Below are positions 23,554-37,971 of a DNA stretch of 64,000 nt, in pieces. The notes under the pieces were generated by a model. That model was not told the DNA's origin. It saw nothing but the letters and a program-made list of their open reading frames with translations, and searched no databases. Source of the DNA: a filamentous cyanobacterium ESFC-1 (GTDB taxonomy: Bacteria > Cyanobacteriota > Cyanobacteriia > Cyanobacteriales > Spirulinaceae); assembly GCA_000380225.1 (NCBI GenBank), contig KB904821.1, positions 1,788,830 to 1,852,829 of the forward strand. The letters are read 5' to 3'. Each line of letters begins with the position of its first letter. Position 1 is the stretch's first letter. Position numbers and translations under genes: made by a program.

Positions 23554-24708
23554 ATGCGTACAAATCAGCCTCAAATCAACCGTAAAGCCGTCCAAGCCGG
23601 GGGAAAACTCAGCTTTTTTGAGAAATACCTCACCATTTGGGTCATCTTGTGTATTTTAATCGGTATTAGCCTCGGTCGTGCCTTCCCCGGTATTGCCCAA
23701 AGTCTCGATAACCTGAGCATCTACAACATCTCCATTCCCATTGCGATTTGCCTCTTTTTCATGATGTATCCCATCATGGTCAAAATCGACTTCTCGCAAA
23801 CCCTCCAAGCCGCCCGCGCCCCGAAACCCGTCATTTTGACCTTAATCGTCAATTGGCTGATTAAACCCTTTACCATGGTTATTTTAGCGCAGTTTTTCTT
23901 AGGCTGGCTCTTTCGTCCATTGCTGTCGGGGACAGAAATCATCAACGGCACAGAAGTCACCCTCGCCAACTCCTACATTGCCGGAGCCATCTTACTCGGA
24001 ATTGCCCCCTGTACCGCCATGGTCTTGATGTGGGGTTATCTTTCCTACGGCAATCAAGGCCATACCATTGTTATGGTTGCGGTAAATTCCCTCGTCATGC
24101 TCTTTCTCTACGCCCCTCTAGGGAAATGGTTACTCGCCACCAACGACCTCAGCGTACCTTGGCAAACCATTGTTTTCTCCGTCTTAATCTATGTCGGCTT
24201 ACCCCTCGCGGCGGGAATGTATAGCCGTTACTGGATTTTCAAACACAAAGGAGAAGATTGGTTTAAGCGGCGTTTTCTGCAATATCTCAGCCCGATTTCG
24301 ATTACAGCTTTGTTAATCACTCTGATTCTCCTGTTTGCCTTCAAAGGCGACCTTATTATCGAAAACCCGTTGCACATTCTCCTGATTGCCGTTCCCTTAT
24401 TCCTCCAAACTAATATTATCTTCGGCCTCGCTTATGTGGGAGCCTGGAAACTGAAAATAGCCTATGAAGATGCCGCCCCTGCTGCCCTCATTGGAGCCAG
24501 CAATCACTTTGAAGTCGCCATTGCCACCGCCGTGATGCTGTTTGGACTCAATTCTGGAGCCGCCTTAGCCACCGTGGTTGGGGTACTGATTGAAGTCCCG
24601 GTGATGTTGATGCTGGTGAAATTCTGCCAAAAAACTGCCTTTTGGTTTCCCCGCGAACCGGAAAAAGCGACTTTGCTTGACCCTCGCTGTGCAAAATCGT
24701 TTCGGTAA
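23554..24708 (+). CDS. acr3: Acr3-type arsenite efflux transporter
   Basis: A 384-residue inner-membrane carrier with about ten hydrophobic helices, belonging to the BART superfamily Acr3 family. The conserved Cys is in the substrate-site motif [15 protein letters not shown], and a second hallmark, [18 protein letters not shown], is near residue 320. It exports As(OH)3. It is repressed through two ArsR operators upstream. The last codons reach into the left arm of a MITE-like element, which may have replaced the original C-terminal residues. Confidence 0.95.
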
Positions 24709-24804
24709 TGAGTGGGGATTAAGAACCCCGGTTTCTTACCCGCTTACACAGTCAAATTTAAATTTCAAGCTAGAAAACGGGGTTCTCAAACAGTTGTTTT
24801 TTCG
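24707..24804. mobile_element. MITE-like element, copy 3 (partial)
   Basis: AGAACCCCGGTTTCT (24722-24736) and AGAAAACGGGGTTCT (24772-24786) flank a 35-bp core. The arms (AGTGGGGATT on the left, CAAACAGTTGTTTTTTCG on the right) match the reverse complement of the 38.4-kb copy, but the terminal ATCAAATCCG ends are missing. It separates acr3 from arsI. Confidence 0.7.
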
Positions 24805-24883
24805 CAAAAAAATACACCTTGAAAGGGCTGGCGATGCCCCACGCAATACTGCAACTTCTAATCCTTGATTCCAACAATACTCA

Positions 24884-25303
24884 ATGAATATGTACAAAAC
24901 CCACGTTTCCCTCAACGTCCGCAACCTCGAAAAATCGGTTCAGTTTTATCAAATTCTATTCGGGGTCAATCCCGTCAAATATAAAAGCGATTATGCCAAA
25001 TTTGACATCAACAATCCCCCTCTCAACCTCACCCTCGAACCCCAAACCCATCTTAAATCCGGTGGGGCGTTGTCTCACCTCGGTATTCAAGTCGAAAGTA
25101 CCGCCGCCGTCCAACAAGCCCTGCAACGCTTCCAAGCTGCCGGATTAGATTTGTTTGAAGAAAAAGATACCAATTGCTGTTATGCGCTCCAAGACAAGGT
25201 TTGGATTCGCGACCCAGACGGCAATCCCTGGGAAATCTTTGTGGTTAAAGTTGCCGATACCGAACCGGAAACCAATCGCCCTTCTCCTTGCTGCGCGTCT
25301 TAA
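24884..25303 (+). CDS. arsI: ArsI/CadI-type VOC protein, C-As lyase
   Basis: A 139-residue VOC-fold Fe(II) dioxygenase that cleaves C-As bonds of trivalent methyl- and aromatic arsenicals. The three metal ligands are visible as His7 (KTHVSLNV), His65 (LSHLGIQV) and Glu117 (PWEIF), and the vicinal arsenic-binding pair is Cys98-Cys99 (DTNCCYAL). The C-terminus has another Cys pair (PSPCCAS). It sits between acr3 and arsC, as expected in an organoarsenical detoxification cluster. ATG 24884 chosen; ATG 24890 also possible. Confidence 0.9.
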   Translation: MNMYKTHVSLNVRNLEKSVQFYQILFGVNPVKYKSDYAKFDINNPPLNLTLEPQTHLKSGGALSHLGIQVESTAAVQQALQRFQAAGLDLFEEKDTNCCYALQDKVWIRDPDGNPWEIFVVKVADTEPETNRPSPCCAS

Positions 25304-25336
25304 TTCCTTCTCACATTAGCTCAGAACTCAAAAATC

Positions 25337-25681
25337 ATGAAGAAAGTAATGTTTGTCTGCAAACGCAACTCCTGTCGCTCTCAAATGGCAGAAGGCTTTG
25401 CCCGCACCCTAGGAGAAGGTAAAGTTGCGGTGAGTAGTTCGGGACTCGAAGCCAGTCGCGTACACCCGACGGTGATTGAGGTGATGCAGGAGGTAGGAAT
25501 TGACATTACTCATCAAACCTCCGACCCCTTAAACAATTTCAGCCCAGACGATTATGATGCAGTGGTGTCTCTGTGTGGTTGTGGGGTGAATTTACCCGAA
25601 GCTTGGCTATTGCGTGGGGTGTTTGAAGATTGGGAAGTTGGGGTAGGATGCGTTAATAACGCATCCTACTATAGAATTTAA
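25337..25681 (+). pseudogene. arsC: arsenate reductase, C-terminus replaced by palindromic repeat
   Basis: The 114-residue product matches the low-molecular-weight-phosphatase-type ArsC through residue 99 (FEDW). Cys8 and Cys13 (VCKRNSCRSQ) and the redox pair Cys80/Cys82 (SLCGCG) are all in place. After FEDW, family members continue for about 30 residues (the FRRVRDEI-type helix). Here the sequence is replaced by a perfect palindrome with 13-bp arms (25643-25669) and an early stop. It may still have partial activity since the catalytic Cys residues remain, but the terminal helix is lost. I call it a disrupted gene. Confidence 0.75.
25643..25669. repeat. palindromic repeat GTAGGATGCGTTA inside arsC
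   Basis: GTAGGATGCGTTA (25643-25655) and its exact complement (25657-25669) are separated by one base. A related copy lies at 56409-56429 between two other genes. It forms the 3' end of the arsC frame. Confidence 0.85.
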
Positions 25682-25736
25682 AAAGATTATGTTTAGCGCA
25701 TAATGAATATACTTTTTAGAAAAGGTAGTGCGTTAT

Positions 25737-25991
25737 ATGACTATTGAAAAAACCATTGTAGAGAAGGTACGGGTATTGTCCCCCGAAAAACAACAGCAGG
25801 TATTGGCCTTTATTAATCTACTAGAAAATGATGAATGTGAACTTTTATATCAAGGCAAATTTAAAGAATTACAACAGGAAATTAATCTAGGAATTGAAGC
25901 AGCTAATAGAGGTGAGTTTGTGGATGCTGAAGAACTATTTTCAGGTTTAAGAAAAAAACTCCAAGACAAACGTAGTCAAGCTGGGCAATGA
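25737..25991 (+). CDS. ParD-like antitoxin
   Basis: An 84-residue protein from ATG 25737 (AAAGGTAG ribosome-binding site 8 bp upstream; a GTG three codons earlier is less likely). The N-terminus TIEKTIVEKVRVLSPEKQQQ, then VLAFINLLE, resembles small DUF2281/VapB-like helices, while the C-terminus (QEINLGIEAANRGEFVDAEELF) has the ParD toxin-binding pattern. The stop overlaps the next start (ATGA), typical of toxin-antitoxin operons. Confidence 0.8.
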   Translation: MTIEKTIVEKVRVLSPEKQQQVLAFINLLENDECELLYQGKFKELQQEINLGIEAANRGEFVDAEELFSGLRKKLQDKRSQAGQ

Positions 25992-26305
25992 CCAATATTT
26001 GCAAATTTACAGTTCCAGCCAGTCGAGACATTGAGATGATAATTGATTATGTAGCTGAAAATAGTAGTTTTGATGCAGCAGAAAGCGTTATTAGCAAAAT
26101 GAATAGTCAATGTGAAAGGTTAGCAAAATTCCCTGGTATGGGACGTAGACGGGATGAATTAGCTGCTAATGTACGCAGTTTTCCTGTTAATGATTATCTA
26201 ATTTTTTATCGTCCTATTGAGGAAGGTATTGAAATTTTACGTGTTGTTAGTGGTTACCGAGATTTAGAAGGGTTGTTTGTAAAAGATGATGAGGATTGGC
26301 AATAA
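25988..26305 (+). CDS. ParE/RelE-family toxin
   Basis: A 105-residue protein with the ParE pattern: FTVPASRDIEMIIDYVAENS, then LAKFPGMGRRRDELA, then VRSFPVNDYLIFYRPIEEGIEIL, then RVVSGYRDLEGLF. ParE toxins poison gyrase and RelE toxins cleave mRNA; the PGMGR and YLIFYR elements favour ParE. It overlaps its antitoxin by 4 bp. The pair is intact, unlike the other toxin-antitoxin remnants in this window. Confidence 0.88.
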   Translation: MTNICKFTVPASRDIEMIIDYVAENSSFDAAESVISKMNSQCERLAKFPGMGRRRDELAANVRSFPVNDYLIFYRPIEEGIEILRVVSGYRDLEGLFVKDDEDWQ

Positions 26306-26457: not shown

Positions 26458-29010
26458 TTACAACCAATTTCCCACTAAAATAAACGCCGACCAGTAATAA
26501 GGATGAGAAAACTCCTCTTGATTCAGTAAAGACAACTGAGCGCGACGCACCGCTTCAGCGCGATTAATGCCCTCACTCTCACTTTTTGCCAACTCTTGAT
26601 AAAATTGACTCATTAAACTGGCAGTTGCCTCATCGCTGACGTACCACAAACTGGCAAGGGTGCTTCTAGCTCCCGCTCGTACCGCCATTCCTGCCAATCC
26701 GAGGGCGGCTCGGTCATCTCCTGCGGCGGTGGTGCAGGCGCTTAACACCAGTAGTTCTAGGGGTTGGAGTTGTTGTTTGTCCGCTTGCAACAGTTGATTG
26801 AGTTCGTTAATGTTGAGTTTGCCGTCCCAAGTGAGGAGAAAGGTGTCTTCGGCTTGAGAGCTAAATTGTCCGTGGGTAGCGAGGTGAACTACGGGAAAGT
26901 TTTTCGCTCCTAATGTGGTTCTAAAGTTAGACTTGGTAAAGGTTTGGTTGAGTAAGCGCTGGCTGGTGACGGTCGCTTCAATATTGTCCAGTTCGAGTTC
27001 GACGTTGGGTAAAGCGCTAAAGCCCTGTCTGGCTTCGGTAATGCCTGCTCCTAAGACATTGAGACTTCCTGGTTCAATGGGTTGGGGGGCGACGAGGTTG
27101 AGGGTGGGCGCGATCGCGATACTATAGTTTTCAATGAGATATTGTTCGCCGTCGTATAAGGCACTCATCGGCACATTCCGCAGTACGCCGTCAGCAATGA
27201 AAACCAGGGTTTTGATGTTTTGTTGGGCTAAATCCGCTTCAATGGGGCGAATCAGCCAATCATACAGCTTCTCGGAGCGTTCTAAGCGCTTTTTGTTAAA
27301 GGCCCGTTCTCGGAAACTGGCTAACGACAAGCGATAATCTCCAACGCCTTGTTTAATTTCTGCGTCTGAGAGGGGAGTGCTATAGTTGCGTAACGGTTGA
27401 CCGGGAATGGCGGCAATCACTTCGAGGCGATCGCGTAGAATAATAGAATAGAAAATCGCAGATTGAGAATCTATCTGGTCGATTTGGACTTCTTGGGCAT
27501 CTAAACAAGCATCGCGAAAAAAGTTGTCCAACTCTGCCAACTGCAACAATTCCAAGGTTTTACGGGCTTGTTGTAAATCTCCTTGACTGGCATTCGGTTG
27601 TAGCAACAAATCCACCAACTCGCGATATACCGGTTCGACGGTTTCCCGGAAAGAAAACTGCACATCGGAACTCACCGAAACCAAATCACTCCGCAACGAT
27701 TGTAACGTTTTCACCGCTTGATTATAAGACGCGATCGCCCTGGGACGTTGTTCTTGCTGCTTATAAATCCGTCCCAACTGCCAAGACAACTGATAAGCAA
27801 CATCCCCCGCATTCGCCGTCTGCGCCAAAATCAACGCCTGTTCCGTCGCTTTCTCCGCCTCGCTGTAGCGCTTTTCGGTTTCGTACAACTGCCCCAAAAA
27901 GCCCAACGCCGCCGCCTCAGCCCGTTTATCCTTAAAATCTTGCGCTTGTCGCAGCGCCAAAGCTAAATCTTCAGCAATAGCCTTAGAACTAATCCCAGAA
28001 GCCGTTTCCTTGAGCTTCATCAAATTTTTAGCCAAATTAATCCGTCCATAAATTCCCGTTAAATTCGGCGGTATAGTCTCCAAATCCGCCTTAATCCTAT
28101 TGGCTAACGCCAAACTTTCCTGACTTTTGCCCTCATTTGCCAGCAAACTCAACTGATTCAACTGCCCTTGTAAGCGTAAGGAAGTTGAAGGGGCAATTTC
28201 GACAGCTTGGCGATAATAATCTAAAGCCATTTCAACCGGATTCACCTCATCGGTTGCTTGCTGCAACTGCGCCGCATTTCCCAAACTAATCAACGCCTCG
28301 GTTTGGGCTGTTTTATCCCCTAAACTTTCTGCGAGGGTCAAACTTTCTTGTAAAACCGTTGTCGCATCCCGCAACTGTCCCGCAGCCCGCAACACCTCTC
28401 CCAAACTCTGTAACGCCTTTGCCTTCAAAACGCTATCCGGTTTTGTCGTTAATCGTTGCTGAATTTCGGCTAACTGTAAACTCGCTTGATTGTACAACCC
28501 CAACGCCCGCAACGCCTGGACGCGGTTGAGTTGATTGCGGGTTAGCCCGGTATCGTCCTGTAACGCCTCATAAGCCGCCGTTGCCTCTGTCCAAACATCT
28601 AACGCGGTTTGCGAGTCTCCCTGGGCAAAAAGTAGCTGTCCTGTGGCTTCTTGAATCTGGGCCTGTAACAGTCCTTTCTCGTTCGTTGTCAAGGCTTGCG
28701 CCAACTGGGAACTATTATCAAGGGCTTGTGCGGCGGCGGCGAGATTGCCGATTTTGAGATAAATTAAGCCCAAATTGCGATAAGCCAACGCCTGGGTAAA
28801 TTCATCCGGGGACGCGATCGCGCCCTGTAAGATAGCAATAGCCTCCTGATATCGTCCCGCCTCGTATAACCGTTGCGCTTCCCCTTCTAAGGCAATGGTT
28901 TCTGCCACCTCCGCCTCCGACATCACAATCGCCCACCCCGGCTGACTCAACCCCACCCCACAAGCCACCGCAATCCCCAAAGCTGATAGTAAAAGTTTGT
29001 TTTTTGTCAT
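26458..29010 (-). CDS. exported TPR-CHAT domain protein
   Basis: An 850-residue protein with a signal peptide (MTKNKLLLSALGIAVACGVG, cleavage after GWA), about eight TPR units (about 40-440) and a C-terminal CHAT (caspase HetF associated with TPRs) peptidase-like domain (about 530-850). The catalytic dyad is visible as His in VVHLATHGQF and Cys in LLVLSACTTAAG. CHAT proteases include HetF and type III CRISPR-linked TPR-CHAT, but this one is exported. It is upstream of nothing on its own strand and follows the large adhesin gene. Start codon is next to a heptamer repeat. Confidence 0.9.
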   Translation of the reverse strand: MTKNKLLLSALGIAVACGVGLSQPGWAIVMSEAEVAETIALEGEAQRLYEAGRYQEAIAILQGAIASPDEFTQALAYRNLGLIYLKIGNLAAAAQALDNSSQLAQALTTNEKGLLQAQIQEATGQLLFAQGDSQTALDVWTEATAAYEALQDDTGLTRNQLNRVQALRALGLYNQASLQLAEIQQRLTTKPDSVLKAKALQSLGEVLRAAGQLRDATTVLQESLTLAESLGDKTAQTEALISLGNAAQLQQATDEVNPVEMALDYYRQAVEIAPSTSLRLQGQLNQLSLLANEGKSQESLALANRIKADLETIPPNLTGIYGRINLAKNLMKLKETASGISSKAIAEDLALALRQAQDFKDKRAEAAALGFLGQLYETEKRYSEAEKATEQALILAQTANAGDVAYQLSWQLGRIYKQQEQRPRAIASYNQAVKTLQSLRSDLVSVSSDVQFSFRETVEPVYRELVDLLLQPNASQGDLQQARKTLELLQLAELDNFFRDACLDAQEVQIDQIDSQSAIFYSIILRDRLEVIAAIPGQPLRNYSTPLSDAEIKQGVGDYRLSLASFRERAFNKKRLERSEKLYDWLIRPIEADLAQQNIKTLVFIADGVLRNVPMSALYDGEQYLIENYSIAIAPTLNLVAPQPIEPGSLNVLGAGITEARQGFSALPNVELELDNIEATVTSQRLLNQTFTKSNFRTTLGAKNFPVVHLATHGQFSSQAEDTFLLTWDGKLNINELNQLLQADKQQLQPLELLVLSACTTAAGDDRAALGLAGMAVRAGARSTLASLWYVSDEATASLMSQFYQELAKSESEGINRAEAVRRAQLSLLNQEEFSHPYYWSAFILVGNWL

Positions 29011-29097
29011 TTGTTGTTGGTTGTTGGTTATTGGTTATTGGTTATTGGTTGTTGGTTGTTGGTTGTTGGTTATTGGTTATTGGTTGTTGGTTATTGG
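29011..29097. repeat. heptamer repeat (TTGTTGG/TTATTGG)n
   Basis: About twelve units of TTGTTGG and TTATTGG lie immediately upstream of the CHAT gene's start codon. They are followed by GGACGGGGAAACCCCG, a repeated palindrome, and by GATTGCC heptamers (about 29120-29150). Confidence 0.95.
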
Positions 29098-29199
29098 ACG
29101 GGGAAACCCCGCCCCTACACACCGATTGCCGATTGCCGATTGCCGACTGCCCAAAAACCACAGCAAAGCTGCCTACTGCCCAAAACACTGATAACTGAT

Positions 29200-29392
29200 T
29201 ACTGATGACACTCGCGCGAAACTTAAATTCGCTTTTTGACGCTGAAATCCAGATATATTCTAGTGTTGAGCCTTTTCTAGAGTCTGCCCTACAGCAAGAA
29301 GTTTCTGACCCCCTTTCTGGGGCAAAATCCCACCTCCCCCCCGACTGCCGACTGCCGATTGCCGATTGCCCCTTAGAGGCTGTTAACTGAAA
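29200..29392. repeat. 190-bp dispersed repeat, copy A
   Basis: Shares with copies at about 51392-51585 and 51577-51770 the ordered blocks GAAACTTAA, GTTGAGCCTTTT, AGAGTCTGCCCT, AGTTTCTGACCCCCTTTCTG, GGGCAAAATCCCAC, GACTGCC/GATTGCC heptamers and CCCCTTA. The right end overlaps the last codons of the adhesin gene. Confidence 0.85.
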
Positions 29393-32300
29393 ACCCCTCC
29401 CCACACATCGGATAAGCATAACCCCTCGCCCCCATTTCTGCATTCGGCGCAACTGCGGTTAACTGAATCTGGCCATCAGGAGTCACCACCCAACCCTGAG
29501 TTTGTTGAATTTGCGACCTTTCTAGGGGTTCTGTACGAGGCACAACCGCCACCGCATTCTCCGAGCGACTTGCCCATTCGACGGCCCCCGTCCCTGGAGT
29601 CATCAACTCTACCGGATTCGGCGGTAAGCCGCCCCTCCCGGTCACGATAAAGGAACTCCCCCCGGCAATTTGGTCATTCTCTACCGCGCAGACATCCCGC
29701 CCCACCAGGGCTTCTGCGTCCACTAATGCCCCCGATAACTCGTTAATGCCTTGTTCTGCTGGAAAAGAAAGCAAATCCAGGGTAAACGAGCCATTCAAGC
29801 CAAATTCTGACGAAGCGGTGATATCGCTGAGGGGAGTCAGTTGGGGGCGAAATTGCAAGCCATAAATGCCGTTGGTGGTGATTAAAATATTACCCCCCTG
29901 ACCCTCAAACGCATTGGCAGTAATGTCGCTATTTTCGCCAGGGACACCAATCACAAACTCAGCCCGAATATTAATATTGCCGCCGTTACCGCCAACCCCA
30001 GCGCTTCCGGCGGTTGTGGAAATCAAACTGCCATTCCGCAATACCAAAATCCCATCGACATTAAGGCCGATATTGCCCCCATCCCCGGAACGAGTTTCCG
30101 TGAGAATTCGAGCATTATCCAAACTCAAAAATCCAGTATTCACGGCGATACCGCCAGCTACACCCACCCCGGCTGCACTCGAACTCAAACCTGCATTGTT
30201 GCTGAGTTGCAGTGTTCCGGCATTGACAATAACTTGACCGCCATTGCCCGTTGCGTCGGCACTGGCTTGGCTAAATATACCGCTATTTGCCCCGTTTAGG
30301 ATGGCTGTGTCTGCAACATTAACGATAACATTACCGGAGTTGCCTTGGCCGCGGGTACTAGCAGAGAGAAAAGCGCCATTGGTAAGGGCGAGGGAGTTGG
30401 CGGTGAAATTCACTTGGCCACCGTTACCCACTGCCCCCGATGTTACCTCGCTGGCGGCGAAACTATTGTCTAAGTTGGCGCGATCGCGCACTATAATATT
30501 TAAACTCCCGGCATTACCCTGACTCAAGGTATTCGTACTAATTCGGCCATTATTGAGCATTTGCAGCGAACCCGTGGTCAAGTTAACCCTGCCACCATTC
30601 CCCACAGCCCCAGATGCCACCTCACTCGCTGCAATGCCATTATTCTCAATTTGGGTCAAATTAGAAACATTCACATCCAAGTTACCCGCATTTCCTTGAC
30701 CGAGGGTACTGGTTGTTAATCTTGAACGGTTGGCAATGCGTAACGAAGCCGCCGCCAAATTCAACTGACCGCCTTCACCTATCCCGCTACGGGCGACAGA
30801 ACTCCCCACTAAACTATTATTGTCCAAAACTAAATCGGAGCGAATATCCAGGTTTAAGCGTCCGGCATTACCGCGGCCTAAAGTATTTGTGGTGAGTTCC
30901 GCGTTATCTGTAACCAACAAAGTATCGGCGGTAAAATCAACTCGACCGCTATTACCCACCGCTCCAGTTTTGACTTCACTGGCAATCGAACTGTTGTTGC
31001 GAATCACTGCATCAGAGCGAAGGTTAATATTCATTTGCCCGGCATTGCCTCGCCCGAAGGTACTGGTACTCAGGCGCGAATCATGAGAGATTTGCAGCGA
31101 ATCAGCGCTTAAATTAACTTGTCCGCCATTTCCTACACCATCTTGAAGTACCTCACTAATAGCAAAGCTATTGTTATCAAAAACGGCATTGGAGCCAATA
31201 TTTAGCATAAGTTGTCCGGCGTTACCTCTGCCTGCGGTACTGGTACTAATACGGGAATTATTACTGACTTGGAGTGAATTTGTGGTCAGATTTACTTGAC
31301 CGCCATTTCCGGTAACATCAGCTTCGACGCTACTCCGAATTGAACTGTTATTATCTAAAATTGTATTCCCAGTGGCGGTAATATTTAAACTTCCAGCATT
31401 GCCTTGACTTCTGGCAGTAGCAAAACTCGCATTACTACTCAAAATAGAGTTATTGGTAATGGCTAAATTTTGGGTGTTAATATTAATATCGCTGGCACGA
31501 CCTTGACCAACCGTTTGTCCCAAAAATTGAGAATTATCAAAGCTTAAATTTTGGGCTGTAATATTGATATCTCCCGCATCCGGTTGACCGAAGGTTGTTG
31601 TTTGTAACGAGGTGTTGCTAATTTCTATAACTCGCCCATTGAAATTAATCTGCCCGGTTTCTCCCAAGCCATTAATAAAAGCATTCAAAAAAGAACCATT
31701 AGCACTATTCAAAGCAGTATTTCGGATTTGAAGTATATCAGCATTAAAATTAATATTTCCAGCTTTGCCTTCATCAAAGGTACTGGTTATAAAATCTTCG
31801 GGCTGAACGCTCAACCCTGGCCCAATCAGCCCATTGTCAATATCAATAATTTGAGCATTGAGGTTAATATTGCCAGCATTACCTCGTCCCGCCGTTTCAG
31901 CAGTGAATACGGAATCATCGCGAATATTGATTACTTGGGCATTGAGGTTAATGTCTCCGGCATTGCCTTCGCGACTGGCATTACTAAACACTTGTAATCT
32001 TTGCGTGTTTAAAATCCGGGCATTAAAGTTAACGTCTCCGGCATTTCTTCGTCCCAAAGTTCTCGTATTAATTCGCGTGCTATTAATCACATTAATTGTA
32101 TCGGCAGTGATTTCGATGTTGCTTCCCGGTAAGCCAGGAGTTGTAGCGCTACTGCTACTGGTTAAAAGGGCATTATCTAACGTAATTGTGCCTTGACTGT
32201 TGAGAATAAGGGAACCACTTCTTTGACCGGAAACATTAATTTCAGCATTATTACCTAAATTAATATTATTAGCCGCCAGAAATGTAACGTCATTGCCGTC

Positions 32301-33728
32301 ACCTGTAGCACTATTAGCAAGGATTAAGTCTGTTTGATTAATATTATTTCTAGAATCAACTGTAATCTGGCCATCATCTCCTAAGAAAATTTGTGAAATG
32401 GTAATATTGCCGTTAAGGGCCTGATTGGGGGCGTATTGGTTGGTGAGGAGAACCCGACCGGGATTGGCAAAAGGCATCGCAATCAAACCTGTATTAATAT
32501 CGGCACTGGTGGCGGTGGGATTGTTTGTAGCAAAGGGGGGTTGCAACAATAAGGGAAGGGTCGGATTCAGACCGGGGAAGCCGCCGAGTTGCGCCCAATC
32601 CACGCCAGCGCGTAAGTCTACAGTCGCTTCGGTGCTACCGTCGATGGTAATGGTTTGGCCATCGCTGGTGGTGACAGTGGCAAGGTTGGGGGTGTTGGTG
32701 GGGTTGATGCTGTTACCAACGGTATCGGGTTCGTTAATGAAAATGCCCAAGGGAATATTGATGCTGCCTCCTGCGAGGACGTGCAGAGATGCACCGAAGT
32801 ACAAGTTGGCACTAAAGTCGCCGTTGGCATAAACAACGGGGTCGTTGGGGCTGTGGAGTTCGTTTAAGCTGCCGTCTAGGGTTTCGACGCGGAAGTTGCC
32901 CCCGGTTTGATAATGGGCATCCCCAATGACAGGATTGGCGCTTCTGAGGGTCATGTTTCCCCGCGAATACAGGCCGCTGTCGGAATGGTTGAGGATGAAG
33001 ATATCGACGCTTTCGTTGCCTTGAATCAGCATTTCTCCCCCGGCGCTGGCGATAAAGGGAGTGGTGCTGCTGTCGCGCAATTTGACTGTATCTTGGGCGT
33101 TGAGAATGAGGTCACCCCCTGCGTGGAGTTGTCCTTGTAGGGTGAGGTTGGGGCTATCGAGGGTCAAGTTACCGCCGACTTGTAAGTTGCCTTGATTGGT
33201 AATATTGGCTTGGTGGTTCGTCAGGGCGTTGTGGAATAATGCCCCCGGTTGGACGGAGAGGAGTTGGGAGTTGGCGATGTCGGTGGCGCTGAAAAAGCCG
33301 TTATCGCCGAGTTGGATGCTTTCGGCAGTTGTGGCCAGAAATGAGCCTCGGATGTCGAGGGAGGCGTTTTCGCCAAAGATGATGCCGTTGGGGTTGAGGA
33401 GAAAGAGGTTGGCTTCTCCTGCTACCCCTAAGCGTCCGTTGATATCGGAGGGGTTGTTGCCGGTGACGCGGGTGAGGATGTTTTCTATGCCGAGGGGGTT
33501 GCTGAAGTAAATGTTTTGACCGGATTGGATATTAAATTCGAGGAAGCTGTGAAAGAGGTTGATATCGCGAATTGCGCCGCCGTCGATGTGGTAATGATTT
33601 GGGTTTATGGGGGTGAGGGTGGTGTTTTCGTTGCCGAGGGTGGTGTCGGGAGTAATCTGGGCGCTCACGGGGAGGGTTAAAAGTAATCCGCATAAGCTAC
33701 CACCAATCCAGCGCAAGGAATCAAGCAT
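29373..33728 (-). CDS. two-partner-secretion adhesin (filamentous haemagglutinin type)
   Basis: A 1451-residue exported protein with a signal peptide (cleaved after VSA) and an N-terminal TPS domain (about 25-290) containing HSFLEFNIQSGQNIYF, NPSDINGRLGVAGEANLFLL and NPNGIIFGENASLDI, the signature recognised by outer-membrane TpsB (FhaC/ShlB) pores. The rest is a long right-handed beta-helix made of repeats rich in Asn, Gly and Leu (GNAGxLNI and GNGGxVNLT units). The last residues (FSVNSL) come from a dispersed repeat. No TpsB gene is in the window. It is likely a surface adhesin; the CHAT gene is directly downstream. Confidence 0.92.
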   Translation of the reverse strand: MLDSLRWIGGSLCGLLLTLPVSAQITPDTTLGNENTTLTPINPNHYHIDGGAIRDINLFHSFLEFNIQSGQNIYFSNPLGIENILTRVTGNNPSDINGRLGVAGEANLFLLNPNGIIFGENASLDIRGSFLATTAESIQLGDNGFFSATDIANSQLLSVQPGALFHNALTNHQANITNQGNLQVGGNLTLDSPNLTLQGQLHAGGDLILNAQDTVKLRDSSTTPFIASAGGEMLIQGNESVDIFILNHSDSGLYSRGNMTLRSANPVIGDAHYQTGGNFRVETLDGSLNELHSPNDPVVYANGDFSANLYFGASLHVLAGGSINIPLGIFINEPDTVGNSINPTNTPNLATVTTSDGQTITIDGSTEATVDLRAGVDWAQLGGFPGLNPTLPLLLQPPFATNNPTATSADINTGLIAMPFANPGRVLLTNQYAPNQALNGNITISQIFLGDDGQITVDSRNNINQTDLILANSATGDGNDVTFLAANNINLGNNAEINVSGQRSGSLILNSQGTITLDNALLTSSSSATTPGLPGSNIEITADTINVINSTRINTRTLGRRNAGDVNFNARILNTQRLQVFSNASREGNAGDINLNAQVINIRDDSVFTAETAGRGNAGNINLNAQIIDIDNGLIGPGLSVQPEDFITSTFDEGKAGNINFNADILQIRNTALNSANGSFLNAFINGLGETGQINFNGRVIEISNTSLQTTTFGQPDAGDINITAQNLSFDNSQFLGQTVGQGRASDININTQNLAITNNSILSSNASFATARSQGNAGSLNITATGNTILDNNSSIRSSVEADVTGNGGQVNLTTNSLQVSNNSRISTSTAGRGNAGQLMLNIGSNAVFDNNSFAISEVLQDGVGNGGQVNLSADSLQISHDSRLSTSTFGRGNAGQMNINLRSDAVIRNNSSIASEVKTGAVGNSGRVDFTADTLLVTDNAELTTNTLGRGNAGRLNLDIRSDLVLDNNSLVGSSVARSGIGEGGQLNLAAASLRIANRSRLTTSTLGQGNAGNLDVNVSNLTQIENNGIAASEVASGAVGNGGRVNLTTGSLQMLNNGRISTNTLSQGNAGSLNIIVRDRANLDNSFAASEVTSGAVGNGGQVNFTANSLALTNGAFLSASTRGQGNSGNVIVNVADTAILNGANSGIFSQASADATGNGGQVIVNAGTLQLSNNAGLSSSAAGVGVAGGIAVNTGFLSLDNARILTETRSGDGGNIGLNVDGILVLRNGSLISTTAGSAGVGGNGGNINIRAEFVIGVPGENSDITANAFEGQGGNILITTNGIYGLQFRPQLTPLSDITASSEFGLNGSFTLDLLSFPAEQGINELSGALVDAEALVGRDVCAVENDQIAGGSSFIVTGRGGLPPNPVELMTPGTGAVEWASRSENAVAVVPRTEPLERSQIQQTQGWVVTPDGQIQLTAVAPNAEMGARGYAYPMCGEGFSVNSL

Positions 33729-34130
33729 AATTAATTATTCAGATTATTTTAAAGATAATTGGTTTTCGTATAGGTTTGAGATTTGTTGTTGTAATTATAA
33801 CTCTTTTTTAGGTATAGTTAGAATTTGAAACTATGGTGTTATTGGCATATTTTCCTAATTTTTGCTGTAATTTGAAGTATTTTTAGATTTTACTTTTGTT
33901 AGCAAAAAAAGGAGTTTTTAAAGATTTGACTTGAGGGAGTTGCTGTAAAGAGTTGGTTTATTTTTATTTTGTTATAGAGAATTTGAAAGGGTTGCGATCG
34001 CCTTTGTTGAACCGATCAACCCAGTCATTCTCTAAGTTTAGAATATGAAAATTTGATAAAGCGCCTGGGGGGGTGTCTGGGCAATTTTAATCCCTAGGGC
34101 TACAGTAGAAGCAAAACCCTTACATTGTTT
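33729..34130. promoter_or_regulatory. divergent promoter region adhesin / DUF928 gene
   Basis: This 402-bp AT-rich region separates the adhesin gene (minus) from the DUF928-CHASE2-HAD genes (plus). It must contain both promoters and may co-ordinate the cluster. I saw no clear inverted-repeat operator. Confidence 0.5.
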
Positions 34131-34871
34131 ATGGCTATGTTCCCTCGCAAATTTGCTTTATGGTCTCGGTTGAGTTTGTTGCTGTGCTTGCCGGGTTTGG
34201 TGGGATGGTCTGAGATGACTGTAGCGGCTCCAGTAGCGCCCCAACTGGTGAGTTTGACTTTTCCCCCTACGGCGGATCGCGGTGCGCCTTCAAGGACAAC
34301 GGGAGGTGGTACAAGACAAGGGGGCAGTTGTGGGGTTGCGGTGCAGGAGTCGATCTCGAATCGGTTAACGGCTTTGGCTCCGAGTAATAATGTTATTACG
34401 ACTGTGGCGGCAAATCCGAGTATTTATATTCATGTGCCGTCTTTTCCCGAAAAAGAGGCTTTATTTCGCGTGATTGACCGCGATCGCGAGGAAGTGGTTT
34501 ACCAGGAAACTCTGAAGTTAACCGGGGAATCGGGCTTTTTGAAGTTGCAGTTACCGGATGATGTGGAACTTGCCCCTAATATTAAATATGAGTGGGGCTT
34601 TTTTGTGTTGTGTAATACTGACGATCCCGAACAAGATCGCGGGGTAGAGGGCTGGATCGAGCGTTTGCCGATGGATACAGCGTTACAAGCGCAACTCGAA
34701 GGGATGGAGATGTCTCTGGAGAAAGCGCAAGTTTACGCGGAAAATGAGGTGTGGTACGAAACTCTAGAAATTTTGCTCGGTCGTCGCGAGGAGTATCCGA
34801 CGGAATGGTTGGAATTTGTAACTTCGGTGGATTTGTCCCCGGAGATGGCCGCGAGTCCGATTGTAGAATGA
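34131..34871 (+). CDS. DUF928 family exported protein
   Basis: A 246-residue protein from ATG 34131 with a signal peptide (about 1-33, cleavage after VAA). The DUF928 pattern is visible: low-complexity linker, CGVAVQESISNRLTALAPSN, NPSIYIHVPSF, LQLPDDVELAPNIKYEWGFFVLC and DRGVEGWIERL. DUF928 is a cyanobacterial family of unknown function found beside CHASE2 and CHAT genes. The next gene begins 38 bp later on the same strand. A TTG at 34125 would add two residues. Confidence 0.85.
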   Translation: MAMFPRKFALWSRLSLLLCLPGLVGWSEMTVAAPVAPQLVSLTFPPTADRGAPSRTTGGGTRQGGSCGVAVQESISNRLTALAPSNNVITTVAANPSIYIHVPSFPEKEALFRVIDRDREEVVYQETLKLTGESGFLKLQLPDDVELAPNIKYEWGFFVLCNTDDPEQDRGVEGWIERLPMDTALQAQLEGMEMSLEKAQVYAENEVWYETLEILLGRREEYPTEWLEFVTSVDLSPEMAASPIVE

Positions 34872-34909
34872 TCGGGAAATCTCCGAAAGCAACTCCTTGT
34901 TAATTTTAC

Positions 34910-37222
34910 ATGGGTAAATCTTTTTCTCAATGGCTTTGGATGTGGCGAGGGGTGGCGATCGCGGCCCCTAGTGTCACAATTTTAGTAGTAGCGTTGCGCT
35001 TTTTGGGGGTGCTTCAGTTTTGGGAATGGAAGGCTTATGATGCTTTGTTGCGATCGCGTCCTCCCGAATCATTATCAGAAAAAATCGTCATTGTCGGCCT
35101 CGAAGAAGAAGATTTACAGTATTTAGGACAGGGGGCAGTGAGCGATCGCGCCTATGCCCGATTATTACAAGAAATCGCTGCCCAAGACCCCATTGCCATT
35201 GGTTTTGATATTTATCGCGATTTACCCATTTCTCCGGGGGAGGAGGAGTTGGATCGGGCGTTTCGAGAGATTCCCAATTTAATCGGGGTCGAAAAAGTCG
35301 TAGGCGATCGCCGGGGAGACCGAGTTGCACCTCCAGGGATTTTAAAGGCAGAGGGGCGAGTGGGGTCGAATGATTTAATTTTAGATGCAGATAATATCAT
35401 TCGCCGCAGTTTAATCTATCTGCAAGATGACGAAGGGGAAACGGTTTATAGTTTTAGCTTGTATTTGGCGTTGCTGTATCTCGATTCTCTGGACATTTCC
35501 CCGGAAGTGGTGGACGCAGAAGGCGAGGAGGTTTGGCGACTCGGAAAAACGGTTTTTCAACCCCTCAAGCCCCATACGGGGGGCTATGTGTGGGCGGACG
35601 CGGGGGGATACCAGGTCTTGTTAAATTATTACGGTGGGCGCGATCGCTTTGAAACGGTATCGGTGCGAGATGTGTTAGAAGGGCGTTTACCGGAGGATTG
35701 GGGACGCGATCGCATTGTCTTGGTTGGGGCAGCCAGCGAAAGTTTTAATGATATGTTTGCGACTCCCTACAGCAGTCGGTGGTTAGAAATCCCAGAATTA
35801 ACCCCAGGGGTCGAAATTCACGCCCAAATGACCAGTCAGATTATCGATGCGGCGTTACAGGGTCGGCCTTTGATTCGCGCTTGGCCCGAAATTGTCGAAA
35901 TTGCTTGGTTGTTGCTGTGGGCAACGATTGGCGCGATTTTTGCTTGGTATGGGCGATACTTGCGTTTGATTAATTCTCGTCCGATTCCGATTTGGCAGCA
36001 AAGTATCGTTGCGATCGCGATCGTGTCTACTTTATGGGGTAGTAGCTATATCGCTTTATTGCAGGGATGGTGGTTGCCCGTGGTGCCGTCGTTTCTGGCA
36101 TTGGCGGGGGCGATCGCATCCATTACCGCTTATACGGCTTATACGGCGGTTAAGTTGCGGCAAACCTTTGGCCGCTATCTTAATCACGATGTGGTCGCCA
36201 GTTTGATGGAAACCCCAGAAAACCTCAAATTAGGGGGAAAGCGCCAAGAAATTACGATCTTAACCTCAGATTTACGGGGATTTACCGCCCTGTCCGAGCA
36301 TTTAGCCCCCGAAGCGGTGGTCAGGGTGCTAAATCTGTATTATCAAGAAATGCTCGACGCGATCGCCCAGTACGGCGGTACAATTGATAAATTCCTGGGT
36401 GATGGGATGTTAGTGCTGTTTGGTGCGCCCACTCCTTACCCAGATCACCCCGAAAGAGCCGTGGCTTGTGCTATTGCCATGCAATTAGCTATGACCGCAG
36501 TAAATCAACGGCTTAAAGACCAAAAGCTGCCGAGTTTAGAAATGGGAATTGGCATTAATACCGGAGAATGTGTGATTGGTAATATTGGTTCCCAATGGCA
36601 TACAGAATATACCGCGATCGGGGATCAAGTTAACCTCGCTTTTCGCATCGAAACATATACCACCGGGACACAAATTTTAGTCGCAGAATCGAGTCTCAGT
36701 GAAATTAAAGATTCTGTGGTCAAAGTTCAATATTGCCAACAAGTGCAACCCAAAGGAGTCCAACAGCCAATCTGTATTTGTAGTATTCACGGCATTAGCG
36801 GTCAATACAATTTATTATTACCTCAAGAAACAGAAGAATTTGTCCCCCTGACTCAAGCCATTGATTTAGACTTTACCGTGGTTCAAGGTAAGCAAGTCAG
36901 TCACGAAACCACTGAAGGTAAATTAGTCGAAGTTTCCCATCGCGGCGCAACTATTACTCTCGATCGCGGGGCAGAAATTCCAACTCCATTTACTAATATT
37001 AAGTTGAATTTAAAAAATTTCGATTCATCAGAAGATATTTATGCCAAAGTTTTAAATCGCATTGCCCCTGAACACAGCTTTTATGTTAGATTTACTTTCA
37101 TTTCACCGGAGATTGCAGACCGCTTTAAAAGCTTAACTGAAGCAGTAATATTAAATCCGATCAATGGGGAAAATGGCGATCCTAGAGGTAAAGATGAATC
37201 CCACGAACAACAAACAAGATGA
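34910..37222 (+). CDS. CHASE2-domain class III adenylate cyclase
   Basis: A 770-residue sensor enzyme. One N-terminal helix (about 15-35) precedes an extracytoplasmic CHASE2 domain (about 40-320), followed by three helices (about 325-410) and a class III cyclase (about 430-610). Metal Asp residues are in LTSDLRGFTAL and KFLGDGMLVLF. Lys in IDKFLGDG and Asp in AIGDQVN favour ATP over GTP, and the transition-state Asn/Arg are in NLAFRIE. The last 110 residues (VSHRGATITLDRGAEIPTPF) look PilZ-like, an unusual addition. The HAD gene overlaps the stop by 4 bp. Confidence 0.92.
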   Translation: MGKSFSQWLWMWRGVAIAAPSVTILVVALRFLGVLQFWEWKAYDALLRSRPPESLSEKIVIVGLEEEDLQYLGQGAVSDRAYARLLQEIAAQDPIAIGFDIYRDLPISPGEEELDRAFREIPNLIGVEKVVGDRRGDRVAPPGILKAEGRVGSNDLILDADNIIRRSLIYLQDDEGETVYSFSLYLALLYLDSLDISPEVVDAEGEEVWRLGKTVFQPLKPHTGGYVWADAGGYQVLLNYYGGRDRFETVSVRDVLEGRLPEDWGRDRIVLVGAASESFNDMFATPYSSRWLEIPELTPGVEIHAQMTSQIIDAALQGRPLIRAWPEIVEIAWLLLWATIGAIFAWYGRYLRLINSRPIPIWQQSIVAIAIVSTLWGSSYIALLQGWWLPVVPSFLALAGAIASITAYTAYTAVKLRQTFGRYLNHDVVASLMETPENLKLGGKRQEITILTSDLRGFTALSEHLAPEAVVRVLNLYYQEMLDAIAQYGGTIDKFLGDGMLVLFGAPTPYPDHPERAVACAIAMQLAMTAVNQRLKDQKLPSLEMGIGINTGECVIGNIGSQWHTEYTAIGDQVNLAFRIETYTTGTQILVAESSLSEIKDSVVKVQYCQQVQPKGVQQPICICSIHGISGQYNLLLPQETEEFVPLTQAIDLDFTVVQGKQVSHETTEGKLVEVSHRGATITLDRGAEIPTPFTNIKLNLKNFDSSEDIYAKVLNRIAPEHSFYVRFTFISPEIADRFKSLTEAVILNPINGENGDPRGKDESHEQQTR

Positions 37223-37971
37223 CTGAACTTCGGGCCATTATTTTTGATATGGATGGTACGTTAGCCGATACGGAACGAGACGGCCATCGTGTTGCTTTTA
37301 ATCGTAGCTTTGCCGAGGCAGGTTTAGATTGGCATTGGTCGGCGGGGTTTTATGGGGAACTCCTCGCGATCGCGGGGGGAAAAGAGCGTATTGGCTACTA
37401 TATCGATCGCTATCACCCCGATTTTGTATCTTCTGAAGATCGCGATCGCGTCATTGCCCAACTTCATCAAGCCAAAACTCAATATTACCTAGAATTACTA
37501 CAAACCGGGGCAATTCCCTTGCGGCCTGGGGTCAAGCGGTTAATCACTGAAGCCCGGACTGGGGGGATTCGTCTTGCCATTGCCACTACCAGCGCTTTAC
37601 AAGGCGCGATCGCCCTTTTACAGCAAACCCTCGATCCCGCTTGGTTTGAAGTCATTGCTGCCGGGGATATTGTTCCCGCAAAAAAACCTGCCCCCGATAT
37701 CTATCACTATGTCTTAAAACAGATACAACTATCTCCTGCTGATTGTATCGTTTTAGAAGACTCCCCCCAAGGTTTGGCCGCCGCAACCCAAGCCCATCTC
37801 AAAACCCTGGTCACGGTGAATGATTATACTCGGACAGAAGAATTTAAAACCGCTTGTTTGGTGGTAGATTGTCTAGGAGAACCCGATCTGCCTTGTACCG
37901 CCTTATCACAGTGGGATCATCCTCAACCTTACCTGGATTTAGAGAGTTTGCGTCAGCTTCAACAAGCTTGA
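37219..37971 (+). CDS. HAD-IA hydrolase, CbbY/beta-phosphoglucomutase-like
   Basis: A 250-residue HAD protein. The nucleophile motif is DMDGTLADTE (Asp10, Asp12), motif II Thr/Ser in IATTSALQG, Lys in AKKPAPDIYHYV and motif III Asp pair in VLEDSPQGLAA. The cap is the helical type of CbbY proteins, which dephosphorylate sugar bisphosphates such as xylulose-1,5-bisphosphate. Its ATG overlaps the cyclase stop (ATGA), so it is translationally coupled. The substrate is not determined by the sequence. Confidence 0.9.
   Translation: MTELRAIIFDMDGTLADTERDGHRVAFNRSFAEAGLDWHWSAGFYGELLAIAGGKERIGYYIDRYHPDFVSSEDRDRVIAQLHQAKTQYYLELLQTGAIPLRPGVKRLITEARTGGIRLAIATTSALQGAIALLQQTLDPAWFEVIAAGDIVPAKKPAPDIYHYVLKQIQLSPADCIVLEDSPQGLAAATQAHLKTLVTVNDYTRTEEFKTACLVVDCLGEPDLPCTALSQWDHPQPYLDLESLRQLQQA

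Follow-up and report, generated by a model that had tools for sequence, protein, structure and literature searches.

Do five neighbouring genes of a filamentous cyanobacterium, between positions 26458 and 37971 of the window (the whole 64-kb stretch of DNA analysed here, part of a 5.63 Mb genome), form one surface system, and if so, what might it do? A sequence-only reading had grouped an exported CHAT protein, a two-partner secretion (TPS) exoprotein, a DUF928 protein, a CHASE2 adenylate cyclase and a HAD phosphatase, and a profile search of the window found all five genes in place, each with a Pfam match. The explanation that we favour, at roughly even odds, is that a filament and exported-protease operon lies beside a DUF928–CHASE2 envelope sensor, and that these genes are one instance of a surface module that recurs in cyanobacteria. 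Its secreted filament protein, caspase-like exported protein and paired sensor give it the look of a kit for surface building and surface sensing. Our literature search, which covered few subscription papers, found no description of such a module, nor any paper linking CHAT to DUF928, to two-partner secretion or to CHASE2 together with hemagglutinin.

Layout and gene content

The genes form two divergent units around a 402 bp intergenic region (33729–34130) that presumably holds the promoters, a length that assumes the ATG at 34131 as the start of DUF928. This layout, read earlier from the sequence, is present here but does not hold as a general rule, being one among several arrangements in related loci. 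On the minus strand, the gene for a TpsA-type exoprotein (1451 aa, 29373–33728) lies immediately upstream of, and codirectional with, that of an exported TPR-CHAT protein (850 aa, 26458–29010); the N-termini of both products look like signal peptides. The TPS secretion domain of TpsA (residues 23–280; 32889–33662, minus strand) has the NPNG motif and matched PF05860 at E 7e-44 and TIGR01901 at 3.8e-26. In the TPR-CHAT protein, the TPRs are followed by a C-terminal CHAT domain (residues 578–848; PF12770, E 1.5e-64). Between the two genes lie heptanucleotide tandem repeats (29009–29151), with 12.7 copies of ATTGGTT and 4.3 of CCGATTG.

The plus strand carries the DUF928 gene (34131–34871; PF06051, E 5e-42, 144 bits against a curated cut-off of 26), whose product has a signal peptide and a linker followed by a predicted Ig-like domain and TPR-like helices. 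It precedes the gene for a CHASE2 receptor adenylate cyclase (770 aa, 34910–37222), in which a CHASE2 sensor domain (residues 23–343; 34976–35938; E 4e-66) and a class III cyclase domain (residues 445–616; 36242–36757; E 1.4e-23) are followed by a weakly PilZ-like C-terminal stretch (residues 662–741; 36893–37132) that scored E 0.0034, under the Pfam cut-off; a different CHASE2 protein reaches 2e-4 against PilZ. The HAD phosphatase gene (37219–37971, plus strand; Pfam E 5e-26) overlaps the cyclase stop codon. Despite this overlap we judge it a passenger, because homologues, all weak, occur in only four other fetched loci, and so drop it from the proposed system.

The 64-kb window has no TpsB gene, as had been noticed, and a search of the genome located six ShlB (TpsB) genes, all outside the window and the nearest about 155 kb beyond it. 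On the far side of the CHAT gene, two small overlapping genes (25728–26305) resemble a ParE/RelE-type toxin and its antitoxin. Next to these, a possible arsenic cluster (23554–25681) was recognized by eye, comprising an arsenite permease-like gene, an ArsI-like glyoxalase-fold gene and an arsenate-reductase-like gene whose product ends in an odd, short C-terminus.

Clustering of the gene families in cyanobacteria

DUF928 was searched for in 59 genomes spanning the phylum and was present in 14; CHAT, TPS, CHASE2 and ShlB genes were then positioned in these and two more genomes of the same class, 16 in total. CHASE2 lay within 10 kb of DUF928 in 54 of 73 cases, against 2.5 expected, while the corresponding figures were at least 34 of 73 for CHAT (3.3 expected) and 28 of 73 for TPS (2.2 expected). 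CHAT lay within 10 kb of TPS in at least 61 of 102 cases (4.4 expected), or at least 37 of 77 (2.8 expected) when single-chain fusions were left out, and TPS within 10 kb of ShlB in 20 of 41 (1.1 expected). Co-localisation was thus approximately 5- to 24-fold over expectation in the 16 genomes, where all CHAT counts are lower bounds. The co-localisation of seven family pairs was compared with 2000 circular shifts on six closed chromosomes, and in no pair did any shift reach the observed value. A set of 150 Ser/Thr kinases on the same chromosomes was not enriched near any of the families, which speaks against a dumping ground for gene families as the cause of the clustering. An independent search by CHAT alignment led to 80 loci of named cyanobacteria, of which 66 have a partner gene (TPS at 48, DUF928 at 46, CHASE2 at 46 and ShlB at 13); these figures describe this CHAT subfamily, since the search picked out the nearest relatives of the CHAT protein and some of the contigs are short. 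The neighbourhood statistics for exported CHAT, TPS, DUF928 and CHASE2 are therefore strongly positive, and the co-occurrence of these families in cyanobacteria, noted earlier, is upheld far over chance by the 16 genomes, the shifts and the 80 loci alike.

In the related loci, TPS and CHAT, in that order, are immediate same-strand neighbours 45 times, with a median gap of 44 bp. For DUF928 and CHASE2, same-strand neighbourhood was counted 79 times, with median gaps of 48 and 75 bp. A DUF1822 gene occurs in loci of ten genera, and a gene that we read as sigma-factor-like from its sequence, with no Pfam hit, in ten as well, mostly beside CHASE2; neither is found at the window's locus. Evolutionary distances correlate best for the DUF928–CHASE2 pair (r 0.55, permutation maximum 0.16), followed by DUF928–CHAT (r 0.49, permutation maximum 0.26) and TPS–CHAT (r 0.25), a measure that does not distinguish coevolution from joint inheritance. 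The DUF928–CHASE2 value agrees with a unit, not with contact as such.

The DUF928–CHASE2 sensor and the TPS–CHAT operon could nevertheless have unrelated functions, with no more in common than a promoter region or a mobile neighbourhood. We consider this unlikely, though it is the alternative that survives best. Each unit is found without the other in several loci, the arrangements vary, and DUF1822 and the sigma-like gene accompany only some of them; as many DUF928–CHASE2 pairs lie away from TPS, the two units may indeed be separable. Against this, all four genes occur together in 48 fetched loci, the distances of DUF928 and CHAT correlate well above the permutation maximum, and unrelated kinases do not cluster.

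The filament protein and the exported CHAT protein

In the favoured explanation, a module of filament, protease and sensor, the CHAT protein would be active outside the cytoplasm. The codons of the catalytic residues, numbered from an alignment of homologues, lie on the minus strand at 26872–26874 (His713, in LATHG) and 26734–26736 (Cys759, in LSACT). Both residues are invariant in all 31 aligned exported TPR-CHAT homologues, and of the 78 CHAT domains that are complete, drawn from all classes, 77 keep the dyad, so that the intact dyad ascribed to this protein is confirmed and substitution of the dyad in most homologues is not the case. The export ascribed to it is likewise supported: by a crude window measure, 27 of 32 linked CHAT proteins have a hydrophobic N-terminus. 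We therefore predict, on sequence grounds, that the protein is an exported cysteine peptidase, directed by its signal peptide to the periplasm or the surface. Because co-occurrence exceeds chance and the dyad is intact, the proposal of a linked system withstands both of the tests set for it beforehand.

The link between CHAT and TPS is strengthened by 25 single ORFs that begin with a TPS domain and end in a CHAT domain, in which an intact CHAT domain is carried on a predicted secreted protein. The exoprotein of the window has a predicted β-helical body: an AlphaFold2 (AF2) model of its last 230 residues begins as a regular β-coil (pLDDT > 90 for approximately the first 80) and continues into a conserved C-terminal tail of low confidence. 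This tail (29376–29690, minus strand; Cys1347 ... SSFIVTGRGGLPPNP ... GWV...IQLTA ... C) is predicted to be mostly unstructured and matched no Pfam family. Its conserved elements (C, F.VTGRGG.P..P, VEA.GW, LVA, C) are common to 46 of 57 stand-alone TpsA proteins and to none of the 25 TPS-CHAT fusions, a difference whose Fisher p value of 8e-13 is only nominal because the sequences are related. The tail could be a substrate, but TPS genes with no CHAT nearby encode it too, which means that it is no marker of CHAT substrates. The GRGG motif was likewise rejected as evidence of a CHAT cleavage site in TpsA: its Arg varies (GSGG, GAGG, GPGG), and almost every intact stand-alone TPS protein has the tail, with or without a CHAT neighbour. 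One CHAT protein (L080) has the first half of the TpsA tail at its own N-terminus.

Several other forms of these genes were observed. TPS and ShlB (TpsB) domains are joined in single ORFs in two genera (L076:4423-8748 and L083:4117-8508), giving a secreted protein attached to its own transporter, with an exported CHAT gene after each. A 3935-aa TPS-CHAT fusion (L102:6195-18002) adjoins a TpsB gene, and a cluster of broken TPS and ShlB genes and truncated CHAT genes (L113:971-10106), carried by a secondary replicon, is what is left of a decayed module copy.

CdiA-type exoproteins carry C-terminal effectors, and TPS and CHAT might by analogy form a conflict or kin-recognition system in which the filament delivers or displays a CHAT effector. 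The position of CHAT at the extreme C-terminus of the 25 fusions, where the usual tail is absent, and the many paralogous copies per genome would suit such a role. However, CHAT is not polymorphic but strongly conserved, the gene families shared by several genera include no small immunity-like gene that recurs next to CHAT, and stand-alone exported CHAT genes predominate, all of which makes a conflict system improbable. In the module that we prefer, the filament would instead leave the cell through a TpsB pore encoded elsewhere, and the CHAT peptidase of the same operon would work on the filament, or on proteins encountering it, either in the periplasm or on the cell surface; where the two are fused, the exoprotein itself would carry the CHAT domain. 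CHAT caspase-like proteins have been studied mostly inside cells. A predicted surface-exposed, exoprotein-fused CHAT with intact active sites would extend these proteins to the cell exterior, where it could shape biofilms, filaments, and contacts with phage or neighbours.

The DUF928–CHASE2 pair and comparison with known systems

To our knowledge, DUF928 has had no role assigned to date. The AF2 model of the window's protein (mean pLDDT 84, and > 90 over most of residues 80–248) consists of an Ig-like sandwich followed by TPR-like hairpins. Its best match among solved structures is the C-terminal domain of MtxA (PDB 4z29; VIA Z-score 9.1, rmsd 3.8 over 145 residues), which covers both the Ig and the TPR parts; the next unrelated chain has a Z-score of 7.5. 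The other matches, with Z-scores up to 7.5, are common Ig/FN3-like folds and were not interpretable. A profile search of PDB sequences with DUF928, taken up to E 1, did not return 4z29 and gave no sequence link to solved structures. MtxA is an exported Ig-TPR protein of magnetotactic bacteria, in which a CHASE2 adenylate cyclase gene follows mtxA, and its deletion gave no visible phenotype (PMC4439547). This genomic parallel lay outside the structural search, which makes a chance match less likely, but the Z-score is moderate and the sequences showed no similarity.

DUF928 could instead be an assembly factor for the exoprotein, an Ig-like periplasmic chaperone rather than a sensor partner: weak Foldseek matches include the pilus chaperones CsuC, Caf1M and SfaE, and TPS is among the neighbours of DUF928. 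Yet pairings of DUF928 with CHASE2 outnumber those with TPS by two to one (54 versus 28 of 73), the distances of DUF928 track those of CHASE2 more than those of TPS, and MtxA, the best whole-chain match, adjoins a CHASE2 cyclase and is not described with a TPS protein. We think a chaperone role for DUF928 improbable, to much the same degree as the conflict system. In the sensor that we favour, DUF928 would be the periplasmic partner of the adjacent CHASE2 receptor, which would monitor the filament and pass surface state to an interchangeable cytoplasmic output, here an adenylate cyclase making cAMP.

The cyclase domain of the window is closest, among solved structures, to 2w01, which we take to be the guanylyl cyclase Cya2 of Synechocystis. 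When aligned to 2w01, 6fht and 3r5g, it has Lys (TIDKFLGD) where Cya2 has Glu, as does 6fht, presumably an ATP-using variant of Cya2, and Asp (AIGDQVN) at the second specificity site, as in ATP-specific cyclases; ATP rather than GTP is thus the expected substrate. The alignment also shows the catalytic motifs of class III cyclases. The genome encodes 15 cNMP-binding domains. Reporting through cAMP, as proposed earlier, is therefore supported for this locus only, since the output swaps between domains: among 45 CHASE2 proteins, almost all of them from DUF928 loci, Pfam matches were to CHAT in 15, HATPase in 12, cyclase in 11, GGDEF in 2, kinase in 2 and an AAA-like domain in one, simple motif classing having covered only a minority. 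This variety excludes cAMP as the conserved messenger of the module. In the CHAT-CHASE2 proteins, CHAT is N-terminal with its own conserved FFAGHS and FNSCDG motifs. Such receptors, with CHASE2 C-terminal, lie beside DUF928, DUF1822 and the sigma-like gene at L037:5405-7732 and approximately 30 similar loci.

The signal recognized by CHASE2 domains is unknown (PMC5192318, PMC10581220), and a conserved exported partner that is encoded beside CHASE2 and paralleled in a distant phylum provides a direct and testable candidate. In Cupriavidus and Variovorax, the gene for an exported LysM-FecR protein precedes that of a CHASE2 histidine kinase, a pairing that rests on these two loci and one paper, in which this operon type controls biofilm in Burkholderia (PMC5192318). 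A bolder generalization, which we offer tentatively and hold to be rather doubtful, is that CHASE2 receptors in general each have an exported, Ig-bearing protein dedicated to them (DUF928 in cyanobacteria, MtxA in magnetotactic bacteria, LysM-FecR in β-proteobacteria), and that the cyanobacterial sensor watches a filament that has its own secreted caspase-like protease, making an undescribed protease–sensor system.

Compared with known systems, the exoprotein shares its TPS domain with NPNG and predicted β-helical body with TpsA (FHA-like) proteins of two-partner secretion, but lacks an adjacent TpsB, has a conserved cyanobacterial tail and shares its operon with the gene of an exported CHAT protein; some TPS proteins are fused to CHAT and others to ShlB. 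The CHAT protein shares TPRs and a CHAT domain with His/Cys dyad with the caspase-like HetF and TPR-CHAT proteins, and differs by its signal peptide and linkage to secreted filaments. The Burkholderia BiofilmReg operon (response regulator, LysM-FecR protein and CHASE2 kinase), which is tied to biofilm, similarly pairs an exported protein with a CHASE2 receptor, although the window has DUF928 in place of LysM-FecR and a cyclase in place of the histidine kinase and response regulator, and BiofilmReg has neither TPS nor CHAT. Dgc2 of Leptolyngbya boryana is likewise a cyanobacterial CHASE2 receptor with a nucleotide-cyclase output that governs surface behaviour, but makes c-di-GMP; this CHASE2-GGDEF protein suppresses motility and biofilm (PMC10581220). 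These effects of CHASE2 receptors on biofilm and motility (PMC5192318, PMC10581220) lead us to favour a role in a surface lifestyle. The MtxA system, for which no TPS or CHAT link is reported, has an additional N-terminal region in MtxA and no detectable sequence similarity to DUF928, yet there, as in the window, a CHASE2 adenylate cyclase gene lies next to that of an exported protein in which an Ig domain precedes TPRs.
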